Assembly: GCA_023251235.1 (NCBI GenBank)
Contig: JAHEZE010000017.1
Location: forward strand, 1-42,688
DNA: 42,688 bases
From: Sphingobacteriales bacterium
GTDB taxonomy: Bacteria > Bacteroidota > Bacteroidia > Chitinophagales > Chitinophagaceae
Direction: 5' to 3'
A model generated the notes under the pieces. It searched no databases and was not told where the DNA came from. It was given only the letters and a program-made list of their open reading frames with translations. The first letter of the stretch is position 1. Each line of letters begins with the position of its first letter. The translations under genes and the position numbers were made by a program. Shown here piece by piece: positions 25,853 to 32,896 of this stretch.

Positions 25853-26440
25853 TTTATGTCTTTCGGACAACACTTCAATTATATCATTGAGTTTATAATT
25901 TTTTGCCTGTAGCAAAACAAGATAATGGAATAGCAGATCGGCAGCTTCGCCTAAGAACTTTTCTTTGTTATCGTCTTTACTCTCTATCACAAGTTCCACT
26001 GCTTCCTCGCCAACCTTTTGAGCAATTTTGTTTATTCCTTTTGCAAATAGTGATGAAGTATAAGATGATTCAGAGAAATTGTTTTTCCTATCTGCGATAA
26101 TTTCTTCCAGCCTTTCAAGGGAGAAAGAAGAATTGTTTTCGTTGAAACAGGTATCGGCTCCAGTATGACAAACAGGCCCAGTGGGAGTTGCTTTAATCAA
26201 TAATGTGTCGTTATCACAGTCAATTAATATTTCATCTACTAATAAAAAATTATTACTGGTTTCTCCTTTTGTCCAGAGGCGTTGTTTGCTTCTGCTGAAG
26301 AAAGTTACTTGCTTTTCAGTTTGAGTTTTTATTAATGCTTCTTCATTCATATAGCCAAGCATTAAAACTTTGCCGGTTGAAGCATCCTGTATGATAACGG
26401 GTATAAGCCCATCTGCATATTTTGAAAAATCAGGTTTCAT
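25850..26440 (-). CDS. hisIE: Bifunctional phosphoribosyl-AMP cyclohydrolase / phosphoribosyl-ATP pyrophosphatase
   Basis: A 196-residue fusion catalysing steps 2 and 3 of histidine synthesis. The HisI part (about 1-115) contains the core [16 protein letters not shown] and the metal-binding elements DCDNDT and CHTGADTCF. The HisE part (about 110-196) shows [32 protein letters not shown] and a C-terminal [10 protein letters not shown]. It is the last gene of the his operon. Its ATG overlaps the end of hisF by four bases (ATGA). The order hisF-hisIE is the usual one, and length is normal for the fusion. Confidence 0.97.
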
Positions 26441-27255
26441 ATTCTTACGGTAATATTTTTATTGATTAAATAATTTTTTAAATCCGGGATCGAAATTTCT
26501 TTAAAATGAAAAATACTGGCTGCAAGGGCTGCATCAGCTAATCCTTTTTCAAATACGTCAACAAAATGATCCATTGTTCCGCCACCGCCGGAAGCAATGA
26601 CAGGAACCGGTAGTTCTTCCGATAATTGTTTTGTTATATCCAACGCAAATCCCTGTTTAGTACCATCATGATTCATGGAGGTCAGTAAAATTTCTCCGGT
26701 GCCAAGATCAACAGCTTGTTTGGCCCAATCAATGCACCTTGTTTCTGTTTTGGTTCTTCCTCCATTCAGGTAAACATACCACTCTCCATCTTCTTCTTTT
26801 TTTGTGTCAATTGCCAGTACTATACATTGGCTGCCGAATTCTTTTGCAAGATTTTTTATCAGGCTTGGATTTTTAAAAGCAGCAGTATTTACTGATATTT
26901 TATCTGCACCATTTTGTAGAAGTGCATTTACATCTTCAATACTGCTGATGCCACCACCCACCGTAAAAGGGATATTGATATTATGTGCTATGCGGTTCGC
27001 CAGTTCAGCTAATGTTTTTCTTTTTTCAATAGTAGCGGTAATGTCAAGAAATACCAGTTCATCAGCTCCTTGTTGTGCATACAGGGCTCCCAGTTCAACC
27101 GGATCGCCTGCATCACGAAGGTTGATGAAGTTGGTTCCTTTTACGGTTCGTCCATCTTTAATATCCAAACACGGCATGATTCGTTTTGTTAACCCCCTCC
27201 GCCCCCTAAAGGGGGAACCAAGAGACCTAATCTTATCATTAGTTTCATTATTCAT
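26437..27255 (-). CDS. hisF: Imidazole glycerol phosphate synthase, cyclase subunit
   Basis: The 272-residue (beta/alpha)8-barrel cyclase, which combines ammonia from HisH with PRFAR to give IGP and AICAR. The usual start [15 protein letters not shown] corresponds here to residues 22-35 ([14 protein letters not shown]), so about 20 extra residues precede it. These come from a start codon at 27255 and an embedded palindromic element, read as GSPFRGRRG. The catalytic acids are Asp31 and Asp150, equivalent to Asp11 and Asp130 in normal numbering; the difference confirms a clean 20-residue extension. The rest is typical ([29 protein letters not shown]). It overlaps hisIE by four bases and is separated from hisA by a lysE-type gene. 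Confidence 0.97.
27191..27219 (-). repeat. Short palindromic element at the 5' end of hisF
   Basis: The core CCCCC-TAAA-GGGGG (27202-27215) is flanked by a C-rich tail AACCCCCTCCG. On the coding strand it reads GGTTCCCCCTTTAGGGGG and a G-rich tail, and is translated in frame as GSPFRGRRG. Almost the same DNA occurs at the start of hisB (30459-30487). Confidence 0.85.
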
Positions 27256-27280
27256 AATCTCATCAAATTTTAAAACACCA

Positions 27281-27300
27281 AGTCTCTCTTTAGAGAGATT
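27281..27300. repeat. Palindrome TCTCTC-TTTA-GAGAGA between lysE and hisF
   Basis: A 6-bp inverted repeat with a TTTA centre (27283-27298) fills part of the 54-base gap between lysE and hisF. The layout (arms around T-T/G-A-A) resembles the embedded elements, but it is less GC-rich. It may belong to a related family or be an independent hairpin. Confidence 0.4.
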
Positions 27301-27309
27301 TAGAAGGCT

Positions 27310-27942
27310 TTATTTTCTTGAACTTAATGCAACTTTTATTCCCAATGTAATCAATAATAGTGCTGTAATTTTATTTTGCCATTTTATAAATCCCTGTTTG
27401 TCGGCAAGCCAGTTTCCAAGTTTACCAAAGAGAATAGCAACAAAAATATTTACGAGAGTACCTGAAAAATTAAACCATAAACCAAGCAAAAGAATTTGCA
27501 ATGCAGTGCTTCCATTTTCAGGATGAATAAACTGGGGAAGAAAGGCAAGGAAAAATAAAGCAACCTTCGGATTTAAAACATTAGTGAAAGCACCTTGCCA
27601 AAACAGGTTGGATAATGATTTCTTTTCAGTTTTTTCATTTATGCTGAATATATTCTGCTTGTTTAAAAATGATTTTATTCCGAGGTAAAGAAGATAAGCT
27701 GCTCCAAGGTATTTTATTACCCCGAAAGCGATAGCTGAATTAGCAATGATAGCAGATAATCCAATAACAGCTGCTGATAAATGAACAAGGCAGCCGGCAG
27801 TAATCCCAAGGGCAGACAGAATTCCTGATTTTATTCCTTGCGTGGTACTTCTTGTCGCCACATAGAGCATATCATTGCCCGGTGTGATATTGAGCACCAG
27901 GCTTGCCAAAGCAAAGACTAAAAAATCATTCAGGCTTATCAT
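27310..27942 (-). CDS. LysE/RhtB-family amino-acid exporter
   Basis: A 210-residue membrane protein of the LysE/RhtB family. It has about six hydrophobic segments and the family signatures TPGND near residue 20, the re-entrant-loop region FWQGAFTNVLNPKVALFFLAFLPQF (about 115-140) and a Gly-rich first helix. The family exports amino acids or homoserine lactones by proton exchange; the substrate cannot be read from sequence. Its position is unusual: it lies inside the his operon, overlapping hisA by four bases and followed by hisF after 54 bases. Export of histidine or of an imidazole intermediate is a reasonable guess. The start at ATG 27942 is fixed by the overlap with hisA. Confidence 0.92.
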   Translation of the reverse strand: MISLNDFLVFALASLVLNITPGNDMLYVATRSTTQGIKSGILSALGITAGCLVHLSAAVIGLSAIIANSAIAFGVIKYLGAAYLLYLGIKSFLNKQNIFSINEKTEKKSLSNLFWQGAFTNVLNPKVALFFLAFLPQFIHPENGSTALQILLLGLWFNFSGTLVNIFVAILFGKLGNWLADKQGFIKWQNKITALLLITLGIKVALSSRK

Positions 27943-28715
27943 AAAAATTGTTTAAGCTCTTTCAAGGAAATTTTGTTTTCATAGATTGCTTTACCCACAA
28001 TAGCGCCGCTGCATCCGATCGTTTTTAATTCTTCCAAATCATTTATAGAACTCACGCCACCGCTTGCAATAAATTGCAATTGGGGGAATTTCTGAATAAT
28101 ACTCTTGTATAATTCTGTTGATGGCCCTTCCAGTTTACCATCTTTACTTACATCAGTACAGAATATCTGTTTAATACCACGCTGCCAGTATTTTTCTATA
28201 AAATCATAAATCCAGATATCAGTGGTATCCTGCCAGCTGTGGATAGTGATCTTTTCATCTTTCACATCGGCGCCTAATAAGAATTTATCAGCGCCAAATT
28301 TTTTGATCCAGCTGATAAATTCTTTTTCATTATTTACAGCAATGCTCCCTACCGTTGTAAAATATGCACCGGAATCAAAAACAATTTGCACATCCTTCTC
28401 TGTTCTAATACCACCACCAAAATCAATTAAAAGGTTTGTTTTACCGGCAATATTCTCCAGCACTTTCCAGTTTTTTACCGCACCAGCTTTGGCGCCATCT
28501 AAATCTACAAGGTGCAATCTCACCAGACCAACATCTTCAAATTGCTTAGCAATCTCCAGAGGATTTTCATTATAAATTTTCTTTTGATCATAATCTCCTT
28601 CTGTCAGTCGAACGCATTTTCCATCAATGATATCTATGGCGGGTATTATGAATCCCCAACCCCCTGAAGGGGGCCTATAGGTTTCTTTCGTAGTTAAATT
28701 TTTCTTTTCATTCAT
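27939..28715 (-). CDS. hisA: ProFAR isomerase (phosphoribosylformimino-AICAR-phosphate ribotide isomerase)
   Basis: A 258-residue (beta/alpha)8-barrel isomerase for step 4 of histidine synthesis. The conserved start FIIPAIDIIDGKCVRL lies at residues 22-37, so an extension of about 20 residues precedes the usual start. Part of it (YRPPSGGWG) is encoded by an embedded palindromic element. The first catalytic Asp is Asp28 (PAIDIIDG). Other signatures are DFGGGIRTEKD, LGADVKD, CTDVSKDGKLEGP and ASGGVSS. It overlaps hisH by four bases and lysE by four bases, so the three are coupled. Confidence 0.97.
   Translation of the reverse strand: MNEKKNLTTKETYRPPSGGWGFIIPAIDIIDGKCVRLTEGDYDQKKIYNENPLEIAKQFEDVGLVRLHLVDLDGAKAGAVKNWKVLENIAGKTNLLIDFGGGIRTEKDVQIVFDSGAYFTTVGSIAVNNEKEFISWIKKFGADKFLLGADVKDEKITIHSWQDTTDIWIYDFIEKYWQRGIKQIFCTDVSKDGKLEGPSTELYKSIIQKFPQLQFIASGGVSSINDLEELKTIGCSGAIVGKAIYENKISLKELKQFL
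28654..28680 (-). repeat. Short palindromic element at the 5' end of hisA
   Basis: The core CCCCC-TGAA-GGGGG (28660-28673) is preceded by CCCCAA. On the coding strand it reads in a different frame from the hisF and hisB copies and gives RPPSGGWG. It lies immediately before the codon for the Phe that normally follows Met1. Confidence 0.8.
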
Positions 28716-29323
28716 ATTTCCAGGAAATTTTTAAGTATGGTTTCCCCGGTTAAAGCTGATTTCTCCGGATGAAACTGAACTCCGTAAAAATTATTTTTTT
28801 GCAATGCGCTGCTGTAAGGCTGTATGTAATCAGTAGTTGCAATTGTATGTTCTCCCAAAGAAGCATAATAACTGTGCACAGAATAACAATAACTGTTTTC
28901 ATCTACATTTTTAAATAGATTCGTTTTCAGATTGTAAATAGAATTCCATCCGATCTGTGGAACTTTAAATGACCTCACCCCCTGCCCCTCTCCTGAAGGA
29001 GAGGGGAGGAGCCTTTTCACTTCCTCATTAAATATTCCTAAACATACTGTATCATTTTCTTCGGAATAGTTACACATCAGCTGCATGCCAAGGCAAATGC
29101 CTAAGACAGGCTGGGTGAGAGAGCAGATAAGTTTATCCAGACTTCTTTCCTTTAAATAATTCATAGCAGTCCTTGCTTCTCCAACGCCCGGGAAGATTAC
29201 TTTGTCAGCATTCCTGATTTCATTTTCATTATCAGTTACCAAAGCTGAATATCCTATTCGCTCAAGAGCATAAAGAACCGAGCGGATATTCCCTGCATTA
29301 TATTTTATGATTGCAATCTTCAT
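28712..29323 (-). CDS. hisH: Imidazole glycerol phosphate synthase, glutaminase subunit
   Basis: A 203-residue class I glutamine amidotransferase that supplies ammonia to HisF. The triad is Cys77 (GICLGMQLM), His185 and Glu187 (GVQFHPEKS). The conserved KVPQIGWN segment (120-127) follows directly on a foreign insertion, LPSPSGEGQGVR (106-117), encoded by a palindromic element. In other HisH proteins only a short loop joins these parts, so the insertion is probably a surface loop that folding tolerates. It overlaps hisA by four bases and hisB by one base (TGATG). Confidence 0.96.
   Translation of the reverse strand: MKIAIIKYNAGNIRSVLYALERIGYSALVTDNENEIRNADKVIFPGVGEARTAMNYLKERSLDKLICSLTQPVLGICLGMQLMCNYSEENDTVCLGIFNEEVKRLLPSPSGEGQGVRSFKVPQIGWNSIYNLKTNLFKNVDENSYCYSVHSYYASLGEHTIATTDYIQPYSSALQKNNFYGVQFHPEKSALTGETILKNFLEI
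28973..29009 (-). repeat. Long palindromic element inside hisH
   Basis: The 9-bp arms CCCCTCTCC (28985-28993) and GGAGAGGGG (28998-29006) enclose TGAA; a CCTCACCCCCTG tail precedes them on the plus strand. Translated on the coding strand as LPSPSGEGQGVR. It matches the hisC copy almost base for base. Confidence 0.9.
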
Positions 29324-30504
29324 CAGATTATTCCTTTTGTGGTTGGCAATTGCATATTTTCCACATCTCTTTTCACTGCCATTTTTATTGATTTGGCCAG
29401 TGCTTTAAAAATAGATTCTATTTTATGGTGTTCATTTTCCCCATCGGCTTTTATATTCAGGTTACATCTTGCTGCATCGCTGAATGATTTAAAAAAATGA
29501 TAAAACATTTCGGTCGGCATATCTCCAACTTTTTCTCTTTTAAATGCAGCATCCCAAACGAGCCAGCTTCTTCCACCAAAATCTATGGCTACCTGGGCAA
29601 GGCAATCATCCATAGGCAACGTAAAACCATATCTTTCTATTCCCAGTTTATCTCCTAAAGCTTTTGAGAATGCCTCACCTAATGCAATGGCGGTATCTTC
29701 AATAGTATGGTGTTCGTCAATCTGAAGATCACCAATTACAGTGATGGTCAAATCAATTCCGCTATGACGACTCATCTGATCAAGCATATGATTAAAGAAG
29801 TTCAACCCGGTTTCAATTTGTGATTTGCCTGTGCCATCTAAATTTATTTCAATACTGATTTTCGTTTCGTTAGTGTTTCTTTCATGTTTAATTAACCGGG
29901 ATCCGATTTTTAAAAACTCATAAATCTTTTTCCATTCTGTTGTTTCCAAAGCAATGGATGATTGCAGGTTTTGTACTGAATCTGAAATCTGGTCAATTCC
30001 AAGATTCGGATCATTATTAAACCAGATAGCTTTGCAACCCAAATTTTTCGCAAGCTGGACATCCGTAATCCTGTCACCGATTACAAATGAATCAGCAATT
30101 GAATACTTATCATTATTTAAGTATCCGGTCAACATTCCAATGCCCGGCTTACGGGTAGCTTTATTTTCATTGGGGAAAGAACGGTCAATATAAATTGCAG
30201 AAAAAATTATTCCTTCATTCTTCAATTGTTTTAAAATAAAATCCTCGATTGCATTATATTTTTCTTCAGGATAGGAGTGAGTGCCAAGGCCATCCTGGTT
30301 AGATACCATCACTAATTCATAATTCATTTCTCTGGCAATCCGGGCCAACCATGTAAAAACACCCGGATAAAACTCCAACTTTTCAAAACTATCTATCTGA
30401 TAAGTTGGGGGTGCCTCTTTAATCAACACTCCATCACGGTCAATAAATAAAATTCTTCGACCCCCTGCCCCCCTGAAGGGGGAACCTGTAATTGCAGTAT
30501 TCAT
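29323..30504 (-). CDS. hisB: Bifunctional histidinol-phosphatase / imidazoleglycerol-phosphate dehydratase
   Basis: A 393-residue fusion. The N-terminal HAD phosphatase (about 18-185) has the nucleophile motif FIDRDGVL (Asp22, Asp24), [13 protein letters not shown] and IGDRITD. The C-terminal dehydratase (about 205-393) has [43 protein letters not shown] and [10 protein letters not shown], which hold the metal-binding His and Glu residues. Two features are odd. An embedded palindromic element encodes GSPFRGAGG in an N-terminal extension. The phosphatase also lacks the Cys-x-His...Cys-x-Cys zinc loop of the E. coli enzyme; the equivalent stretch here is [16 protein letters not shown]. hisC ends directly before this start. 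Confidence 0.97.
30459..30487 (-). repeat. Short palindromic element at the 5' end of hisB
   Basis: The core CCCCC-TGAA-GGGGG (30469-30482) sits in a frame matching the hisF copy and is translated as GSPFRGAGG. It lies six codons after the start codon and extends the protein beyond the usual N-terminus. Confidence 0.85.
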
Positions 30505-31590
30505 TTAATTCGCTTTATAATTTAGTAGTGCCTCAATTAATGTCTGGTTTTCCTTTTCGGTACCAATCGTTATTCTTAAGCAATCATCACATAAAATAAC
30601 TTTTGAACGGTCACGAACAATGATTCCTTTTGATACAAGCAATTCATAAATATTTCTGGCGCCTCTCATTTTTACCAAAATAAAATTGGCATCTGAAGGA
30701 AAAATATTTTCAATGAACGGTAGATTCTGCAGTTCAGATTTTAATTTTTCCCTTTCATTTACAGTTATTGTAATGTGGTTATTTACCCATTCAATATTAT
30801 TCAACGCATCGAGAACCAGCAGTTGAGTAGCCGAATTGATATTATAAGGATATTTCACCTTATTCATCAGATCAATGATTTTTTCTGACGCAAATGCCAT
30901 TCCCAGTCTCAGTCCGGCAAGTCCCCATGCTTTACTCAGTGTTTGCATCACTATCAGGTTAGGATATTCAGTAAGCTCAGGTATAAATGATTTTTGTTTT
31001 GAATAATTAATGTAAGCTTCATCAATTACCACAATGCCGTCAAAATTGTTCAGGATTATTTCTACATCACTCCGGTTGATACTGTTCCCGGTGGGATTAT
31101 TGGGCGAACAAATGAAAATTAATTTGGTGTATGAATCAATGGCTTCTTCAATCGCATCAAGATTAAGTTGGAAATCGGCCGTGAGATTAACTCTTTTTGT
31201 TTTTATATTATTCATTTCCGCACAAACCTCATACATACCATAAGTAGGGGGGAGGATGATCGCATTATCCCGACTGGGTTCACAAAATATCCTGTATAGT
31301 AAATCAATTGCTTCATCACTGCCATTGCCAAGAAAAATATTTTGAGATGCTACTCCTTTTATCAAGCTTAGCTTTTCCTTTACTTCCATTTGCGATGGAT
31401 CGGGGTATCTGTTGAACCTCACCCCCAACCCCTCTCCTAAAGGAGAGGGGAGATTTACAGGTGAACCAAAAGAATTTTCATTTGCATCAAGAAAAATGGA
31501 AGCATTGCCGCTGAATTCATGTCTTGCAGATGAATATGCAGTCATGTTCTTAATATTTTCTCTTACCAATGAATTTAAATTAAACTCCAT
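30505..31590 (-). CDS. hisC: Histidinol-phosphate aminotransferase
   Basis: A 361-residue fold-type I PLP enzyme converting imidazole acetol phosphate to histidinol phosphate. The PLP lysine is Lys220 in TLSKAWGLAGLRLG. Other signatures are FLDANENSFGSP, FLGNGSDEAIDLL, CSPNNPTGN (Asn of the cofactor pocket) and VIDEAYI. The segment LPSPLGEGLGVR (47-58) is encoded by a palindromic element and interrupts the conserved link between GSP and NRYPDP. This region lies near the protein surface in related enzymes. hisB follows directly; hisD precedes it by four bases. Confidence 0.97.
   Translation of the reverse strand: MEFNLNSLVRENIKNMTAYSSARHEFSGNASIFLDANENSFGSPVNLPSPLGEGLGVRFNRYPDPSQMEVKEKLSLIKGVASQNIFLGNGSDEAIDLLYRIFCEPSRDNAIILPPTYGMYEVCAEMNNIKTKRVNLTADFQLNLDAIEEAIDSYTKLIFICSPNNPTGNSINRSDVEIILNNFDGIVVIDEAYINYSKQKSFIPELTEYPNLIVMQTLSKAWGLAGLRLGMAFASEKIIDLMNKVKYPYNINSATQLLVLDALNNIEWVNNHITITVNEREKLKSELQNLPFIENIFPSDANFILVKMRGARNIYELLVSKGIIVRDRSKVILCDDCLRITIGTEKENQTLIEALLNYKAN
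31417..31453 (-). repeat. Long palindromic element inside hisC
   Basis: The arms CCCCTCTCC (31429-31437) and GGAGAGGGG (31442-31450) enclose TAAA, preceded by CCTCACCCCCAA. It has the same frame and orientation as the hisH copy and is translated as LPSPLGEGLGVR. Confidence 0.9.
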
Positions 31591-31594
31591 GTCC

Positions 31595-32896
31595 TTATTT
31601 TTTTAATCTTATATCCACAGCATTTTTATGCCCATCCAATCCTTCTGCTACTGCCATTTGCATTACTGTATTTCCAATATTTTGTAATCCCGCTTTAGTT
31701 AATTGCTGAAAGGTTATTTTTTTTACAAAGCTATCTACCGATACTCCACTGTACATAGCAGCATAACAATTAGTTGGTAAGGCATGATTAGTGCCGCTTG
31801 CATAGTCACCTGCACTTTCAGGTGAGTAATTGCCAATAAAAACCGAACCGGCAGAAATTACCTTTTCTGCAACCTCATTTGCATTTTCACAAGCCAGTAT
31901 CAAATGCTCTGGTGCGTATTGGTTGGATAAGTCAATGGCTTCATTAATATTTTTTGTGATAAGTATTTTACTATTTTTTAATGCTGCTTCTGCAATTTCT
32001 TTTCTTGATAAACTTTTTAATTGCATTTCGATTTGCTTTTGTGTTTCCACTGCAAATTTTTCACTTGTTGTAATTAATATCACCTGTGAATCCGTTCCAT
32101 GTTCAGCCTGTGACAAAAGATCAGCGGCTACAAATTCTGCGGATGCTGATTCATCAGCAATTACTAAAACTTCTGAAGGGCCGGCAGGCATATCAATAGC
32201 CACGCCTTGTTGTTGCACCAATTGTTTGGCACAGGTTACATACTGATTTCCCGGGCCAAATATTTTATTCACTTTAGGAATGCTTTCTGTTCCATAAGCC
32301 ATGGCGCCGATGGCCTGTACACCACTGGCTTTAAAAATTTTTGTAATTCCAAAAAGTTGAGCTGTAAATAAAATTGCAGGATGTACCTCACCCCCGGACC
32401 CTCTGCTTGAGGAGAGGGGGGATGGTGGTGTACAAAGTATAATTTCTTTACAACCTGCAATTGTAGCGGGTATTGCCAACATCAGTACGGTAGAGAAAAG
32501 AGGAGCGGTGCCCCCCGGAATATATAATCCCACTTTTTCAATTGCTACCGATTTTCGCCAGCATTTTATGCCCGGCATTGTTTCAACAATTTTTATCTCT
32601 TCAACCTGGGATAAATGAAACTTTTCAATATTCAGTTTTGCCTGCTGAATAGCCTCTTTTAATTCCTGTGGTAAAAATTTTTCTGCTGCATCAATTTCCT
32701 TTTGTGAAACCAAAAATCTTTTCAGTTTTACTCCATCAAATTCTTTTGTATACTTTTTTACTGCTTTATCGCCTTTGGTTTTTACTTTCTCTAAAATCTT
32801 TCTCACGGACTTTTCTAAAGATGCGGTCTCCAGTACAGGTCGTTTTGTCAACTCATTCCACATGGCTTTATCCCGGTATGTATATATTCTAATCAT
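31595..32896 (-). CDS. hisD: Histidinol dehydrogenase
   Basis: A 433-residue zinc- and NAD-dependent enzyme carrying out the last two oxidations to histidine. Signatures include GLYIPGGTAPLFSTVLML, GVQAIGAMAYGTESIPKVNKIFGPGN, DMPAGPSEVLVIAD, LLSQAEHG (zinc ligands Gln and His), YAPEHLIL and GDYASGTNHALPT. The palindromic element encodes SPLSSSRGSGGE (159-170) between CTPP and VHPAILFTA, in a reading frame different from that in hisH and hisC. It follows hisG after 33 bases. The length is close to normal once the 12 inserted residues are subtracted. Confidence 0.97.
   Translation of the reverse strand: MIRIYTYRDKAMWNELTKRPVLETASLEKSVRKILEKVKTKGDKAVKKYTKEFDGVKLKRFLVSQKEIDAAEKFLPQELKEAIQQAKLNIEKFHLSQVEEIKIVETMPGIKCWRKSVAIEKVGLYIPGGTAPLFSTVLMLAIPATIAGCKEIILCTPPSPLSSSRGSGGEVHPAILFTAQLFGITKIFKASGVQAIGAMAYGTESIPKVNKIFGPGNQYVTCAKQLVQQQGVAIDMPAGPSEVLVIADESASAEFVAADLLSQAEHGTDSQVILITTSEKFAVETQKQIEMQLKSLSRKEIAEAALKNSKILITKNINEAIDLSNQYAPEHLILACENANEVAEKVISAGSVFIGNYSPESAGDYASGTNHALPTNCYAAMYSGVSVDSFVKKITFQQLTKAGLQNIGNTVMQMAVAEGLDGHKNAVDIRLKK
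32386..32423 (-). repeat. Degenerate long palindromic element inside hisD
   Basis: It starts CCTCACCCCC like the hisH and hisC copies, but the left arm reads CCCTCTGC rather than CCCTCTCC, so the stem is imperfect. On the coding strand it is translated as SPLSSSRGSGGEV. It therefore appears older or is a divergent copy. Confidence 0.8.

Follow-up and report, generated by a model that had tools for sequence, protein, structure and literature searches.

The six palindromes present in the histidine operon of the window (the whole 42.7 kb stretch of DNA analyzed here) are probably copies of two related families of mobile palindromes of the genus, which are non-autonomous and of the REP/REPIN type; this reading is given a probability of about 0.7. 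Most likely the copies are selfish elements that the cell tolerates, and not functional parts. They presumably move, and the peptides they encode are presumably neutral. Previously, in-frame palindromes had been known mainly from Rickettsia and a small number of REP-rich genomes. The occurrence of six in one operon, the reuse of their sites by different palindromes in relatives and the nesting of one palindrome in another offer a natural experiment on target choice by hairpins and on the gain of loops by proteins. The his enzymes lend themselves to simple growth or activity assays of whether palindrome-coded peptides matter.

Palindromes of the his operon

The his operon is on the minus strand in the order hisG-D-C-B-H-A-[lysE]-F-IE. 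A LysE/RhtB-type exporter gene is found inside the operon between hisA and hisF, at window positions 27310–27942. One palindrome each is located in hisF, hisA, hisH, hisB, hisC and hisD, on the gene-sense (minus) strand. The palindromes (sequences in gene sense) and their host genes are:

27193..27215, minus strand: hisF short palindrome and tail, 5′ end of gene, CCCCC TTTA GGGGG CGGA GGGGG
28654..28673, minus strand: hisA short palindrome and tail, 5′ end of gene, CCCCC TTCA GGGGG TT GGGG
28973..29006, minus strand: hisH long palindrome and GGGGGTGAGG tail, within gene, LPSPSGEGQGVR
30461..30482, minus strand: hisB short palindrome and tail, 5′ end of gene, CCCCC TTCA GGGGGG CA GGGGG
31417..31450, minus strand: hisC long palindrome and GGGGGTGAGG tail, within gene, LPSPLGEGLGVR
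32386..32419, minus strand: hisD degenerate long palindrome and GGGGGTGAGG tail, within gene, PSPLSSSRGSGGEV
~27283..27298, minus strand: tentative seventh copy, AT-richer palindrome TCTCTC-TTTA-GAGAGA, spacer between lysE stop and hisF start
26437..27255, minus strand: hisF host gene
27939..28715, minus strand: hisA host gene
28712..29323, minus strand: hisH host gene
29323..30504, minus strand: hisB host gene
30505..31590, minus strand: hisC host gene
31595..32896, minus strand: hisD host gene

The short class has the gene-sense form CCCCC-TTYA-GGGGG-spacer-GGGG(G) and the long class the form CCCCTCTCC-4 nt-GGAGAGGGG-NN-GGGGGTGAGG. The sequence-only reading of this DNA had described six co-oriented, in-frame palindromes of two size classes embedded in these genes. 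All six were found, and the open reading frames of all six his genes are open through the elements. Both classes are present, however only the hisH and hisC copies are exact long copies; the hisD copy is degenerate and lacks perfect 9-bp arms. The hisH, hisC and hisD copies are internal to their genes as described, but those in hisF, hisA and hisB are at the native gene start, as N-terminal extensions that are certain for hisA and hisB and possible for hisF.

A hairpin scan of the window showed no further GC-rich copy, in agreement with the earlier statement that none was seen elsewhere in the 42.7 kb. The AT-richer palindrome listed above can be added; it was read from the sequence, is under the GC limit of the scan, and has the same C-TTTA-G apex.

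The native start codon is gone in hisF, hisA and hisB, and the tail of the short copy adjoins the first conserved residues. In hisF the tail adjoins the conserved LTKRI start of the protein, and an ATG at 27175–27177 directly follows the element; translation of the hisF element is thus not forced. The hisA copy is translated as RPPSGGWGF, followed by IIPAID, and the hisB copy as GSPFRGAGG. These two genes have no in-frame ATG nearby downstream, therefore translation of their elements is forced.

The long copies are read in two frames, which give LPSPxGEGxGVR in hisH and hisC and PLSSSRGSGGEV in hisD. The net gain in HisH, HisC and HisD is 21–30 nt, and the frame is therefore kept. The three inserts are gapped in alignments with solved homologues. 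Predicted models of HisD and HisC, otherwise confident, display the inserts as low-confidence coil loops, with a pLDDT below 50 at HisD positions 164–166 and HisC positions 52–56 (means 89). Further in-frame peptides coded by palindromes, CLPAGQAGS and RLPDGQ, are present in L001 and L111; repeat families other than the short and long classes may also enter genes.

Repeat families across the genome

The genome is a 3.23 Mb draft of 181 contigs, and genome-wide counts are from pattern searches and fetched stretches. The short pattern is found at 60 distinct places (reversed-pattern control, 1) and the long-arm pattern at 14 (control, 0), about eight of which, with hisD counted, carry the G-run TGAGG tail. 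The elements are thus not peculiar to the his operon. Seven of the approximately eight tailed long copies are in frame within genes, i.e. hisH, hisC, hisD, leuS, a GNAT acetyltransferase gene, gltD and a helicase gene; the gltD and helicase-gene copies are antisense. Gene names beyond the window are readings of the proteins, with database matches backing argC and trpA only.

The two classes differ in where they lie across the genome. The short class is mainly intergenic, about two-thirds of its 60 places being outside genes. The long class is scarcer and almost wholly intragenic and in frame. Short copies are also found in frame within argC, trpA, two sensor kinase genes and cinA, and at the starts of hisF, hisA, hisB, argG, murG and an HddC-GmhB fusion. 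Many copies are beside unrelated housekeeping genes, read as nuo, atpA, tsf, lpxB, rseP and others. By pattern search the short family is also present in genomes G001, G002, G003 and G033; it was not found in G004, G005, G025 and G046.

Short copies often occur as REPIN-like inverted pairs with the tails outward, both in the window genome (G000) and in G033. The his-operon copies are singlets and not inverted pairs. In each of two similar sensor kinase genes (L087:3160-3247 and L105:3003-3090), two loops of the ATPase domain hold short copies that form an opposed pair.

The intergenic short copies of G000 and G033 follow a rule of position. Of 66 such copies, 44 have the G-run tail 0–5 nt away from either a start codon or a convergent stop codon, and none has the hairpin side this close to a gene boundary. 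Because gene calling followed a simple longest-ORF rule, start positions are approximate and stops are not. The rule is partly due to tail-outward pairs landing in short operon spacers; copies with no detectable partner also fit it (19 of 30). Copies with the spacer ACA face stops (13 stops to 1 start; Fisher P = 8e-5, ACA against the rest), and those with the spacer AT face starts (11 starts to 2 stops). The hisF, hisA and hisB copies conform to the rule. Short palindromes flush with codons are found genome-wide in G000 and G033, e.g. L321, L091 and L034. The codon-flush position and the spacer bias could represent selection for function.

The two classes together have about 67 copies in the 3.23 Mb, so that 0.11 are expected per 5.23 kb; six are observed in the his operon (P = 2e-9 before correction for a genome scan). 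The concentration in one operon, which had been called striking, is upheld. The shared orientation of the six copies has a chance probability of 2 × 0.5^6 = 0.03 and is weak evidence; it was dropped as a signal, as long copies outside the his operon occur in both orientations.

A second in-frame cluster is found in arg genes, with copies in argF', argC (two) and at the start of argG (L088:439-4527, G000 contig C86). The trp genes with copies are trpA (two) and the trpE leader. The argF' copy and the second copies in argC and trpA come from a looser inspection of the arg and trp stretches. The his, arg, trp and glt loci are four of about 12 independent intragenic loci, which gives P = 0.002 if amino acid biosynthesis genes are assumed to be 5% of the total, some loci having been inspected more closely than others. 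A bias of intragenic copies to amino acid biosynthesis loci is suggestive only.

Relatives and history of the inserts

Judged by its named relatives, the genome belongs in or close to Chitinophagaceae. The nearest genomes found are about 73%–83% identical in the His proteins. The inserts are absent from HisC and HisD of about 100 relatives and from HisH of about 50, with the exceptions of G002 and L239. Thus the inserts of hisC and hisD do not belong to conserved His families; the opposite, peptides that are part of conserved HisC/HisH families, is what the earlier reading had named as a refutation. In the congener G002 (L125), hisB, hisC, hisD and hisH carry inserts at matching positions, and L239 has the hisD insert.

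An assembly artefact, or chance GC-rich palindromes, is the least credible of the explanations considered. The draft state of the source (181 contigs) and the end of the related L239 contig at the hisD repeat would be in keeping with an artefact; however there are six family matches for 0.11 expected and the elements are at the same sites in independent assemblies.

Other palindromes are also found at these sites. Related or different palindromes are at the hisB start in G003, G046 and L171, and a short copy in hisH of G003 is oriented the other way. CCGCC-type hairpins are present in G003 hisB and G001 hisA. In-situ compensatory evolution of the hisA and hisB hairpins was considered, since the full arm-loop-arm-tail forms of G003 hisB and of G001 hisA are each single in their genomes. 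It was rejected, as the CCGCC..GGCGG hairpin by itself forms an abundant family there, with 89 places in G003.

The hisB, hisC and hisH copies of G002 contain a CGTC-type repeat between the arms (CGTCATTGCGAGC..GAAGCAA, and CATCATTG.. in hisC). The CGTC-type pattern has 17 matches in G002 and none in the window genome. Of 21 CGTC repeats in G001–G003, a strict test counts 13 as nested in hairpins, compared with 0.4% for random positions; inspection by eye gives about 18. The host tail is on the same side of the nested repeats wherever it is recognizable. The composite may spread as one unit, or CGTC repeats may enter hairpins anew each time. These CGTC-tagged repeats, similar to RPE-4/6, are found inside the loops of other palindromes in L244-L259 and L125.

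The differing hairpin sequences at one site among congeners would also fit cis-acting RNA elements of amino acid operons, with a role in translation, attenuation or mRNA stability, where selection maintains the hairpin as the arms change. The concentration of copies in his, arg (argF', argC twice, argG) and trp (trpA twice, trpE leader) is in accord with this, as are tails flush with start and stop codons and a spacer type that tracks the type of boundary. However the sequence swaps match other repeat families of the same genomes (CCGCC..GGCGG in G003, CGTC in G002), many copies are beside unrelated housekeeping genes, and about 100 relatives do not have the hisC and hisD hairpins. A cis-acting RNA role is therefore considered unlikely, and mobile palindromes are the preferred explanation.

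Mobile palindromes are also compatible with a single gain of the inserts in the ancestor of the genus group, followed by inheritance and by loss in some species. This history is possible but doubtful. The window genome and G002 share sites and orientation in four genes, and L239 shares them in hisD; divergence between the hisD copies is about that of the flanking sequence (counted by eye). Both points speak for a single gain. The hisC copies, however, are about 94% alike (by eye), with flanks only 71%–78% alike. A tree built from six concatenated His proteins places G002 (support 90) with three insert-free genomes, G001, G003 and G033, and sets the window genome and L239 apart from this group. 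Forcing the insert carriers into one clade is rejected (AU p = 0.008). In addition, the insert-free congeners keep ancestral HisC residues (LPDN) that the carriers do not have, and losses would need to restore them. Since the carriers are not a clade and the ancestral HisC residues are kept in insert-free congeners, repeated insertion at the same loops is favored over a single gain with later losses. An old exchange between lineages is a possible alternative to repeated insertion. That the window species and G002 exchanged the operon recently was also considered and rejected, as their flanks are no more alike than with the insert-free congeners.

Proposed mobilization and known systems

The window genome has four Y1_Tnp genes. 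None of the Y1 transposase genes in G000–G003, G025 and G033 is flanked by CCCC/GGGG palindromes, so that a RayT-like mobilizing gene with these repeats alongside, which the earlier reading had looked to, was not found in the genome or in five relatives. The Y1_Tnp genes of the clade are flanked by other palindromes or by none, and several of the flanking palindromes have a C-TTYA-G apex.

In the proposed process, a RAYT-type Y1 HUH transposase would mobilize the copies in trans. Short copies would normally settle between genes, often in inverted pairs that have their tails outward, and the G-run tail would lie directly against a start or stop codon. The his operon is tightly packed, and there three short copies would have taken the place of the native start codon, giving N-terminal extensions. 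Long copies may have entered variable loops of HisH, HisC and HisD, adding a flexible Pro/Gly/Ser-rich loop with the frame kept. The same loops have probably received insertions on more than one occasion, in separate lineages. In the congener a further palindrome, the CGTC repeat, lies inside the hairpins. It is a tentative suggestion, and one held with less than even confidence, that the insertion machinery recognizes particular sites, i.e. the loops of existing hairpins, codon boundaries of genes, and the same His-enzyme loops in separate lineages. If this were true, proteins would acquire palindrome-coded loops repeatedly and predictably.

The resemblance to Rickettsia palindromic elements (RPE) noted in the sequence-only reading holds for behavior, as the elements are protein-coding and are inserted in frame in coding genes with the frame left open. 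It does not extend to the CGTC pattern, the sequence feature that was compared: the CGTC tag is absent here, and an RPE-4/6-like repeat is found in the congener G002, nested inside these palindromes. That the elements are RPE proper is very improbable. They are in frame, translated and in many host genes, and the CGTC-tagged repeat nested in the G002 his genes is like RPE-4/RPE-6 (PMC3733652); however the window elements have no CGTC tag, the window genome has no match to the pattern, and the short class is mainly intergenic.

No description of such elements in histidine genes or in Bacteroidota was found in the literature searched, which lay largely outside subscription journals. The elements are similar to REPIN/REP sequences (PMC3116915; PMC6006769) in being short, GC-rich, mostly intergenic and non-autonomous palindromes with tens of copies and inverted pairs, and the window genome encodes Y1_Tnp proteins, as do REPIN/REP genomes with RAYT. 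In contrast to REPIN/REP sequences, no flanking RAYT was found, there is no GTAG end (no GTAG/CTAC was seen at the palindrome feet in contexts read by eye), the G-run tail repeats the 3′ arm, tails are flush with start as well as stop codons, and there are several in-frame copies in one operon. One REP subclass that is abundant in Bacteroidetes has been described as having both canonical long and "double foot" REPs, as well as REP insertions inside the transposase genes (PMC6006769).

The CGTC-tagged REPs, which include RPE-4 and RPE-6 of Rickettsia conorii (PMC3733652), are likewise in frame in many genes, often at N-termini or variable positions, with no dedicated transposase known. The window copies differ in lacking the CGTC tag, the CGTC-type repeat being found in congeners only and mostly nested. 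The GTAG-tagged intragenic REPs (PMC3733652) are also within coding genes, and recB of two Xanthomonas species was hit by a GTAG REP at about the same site. However their end sequence is different and their hosts are often DNA repair genes, whereas amino acid biosynthesis genes are prominent here. Because the GTAG, CGTC and cognate-RAYT comparisons all failed, the elements are classed as a new REP-like variant. The best reading is that they act like REP/REPINs and, in coding genes, like Rickettsia RPEs, which represents RPE-like behavior and not RPE membership.
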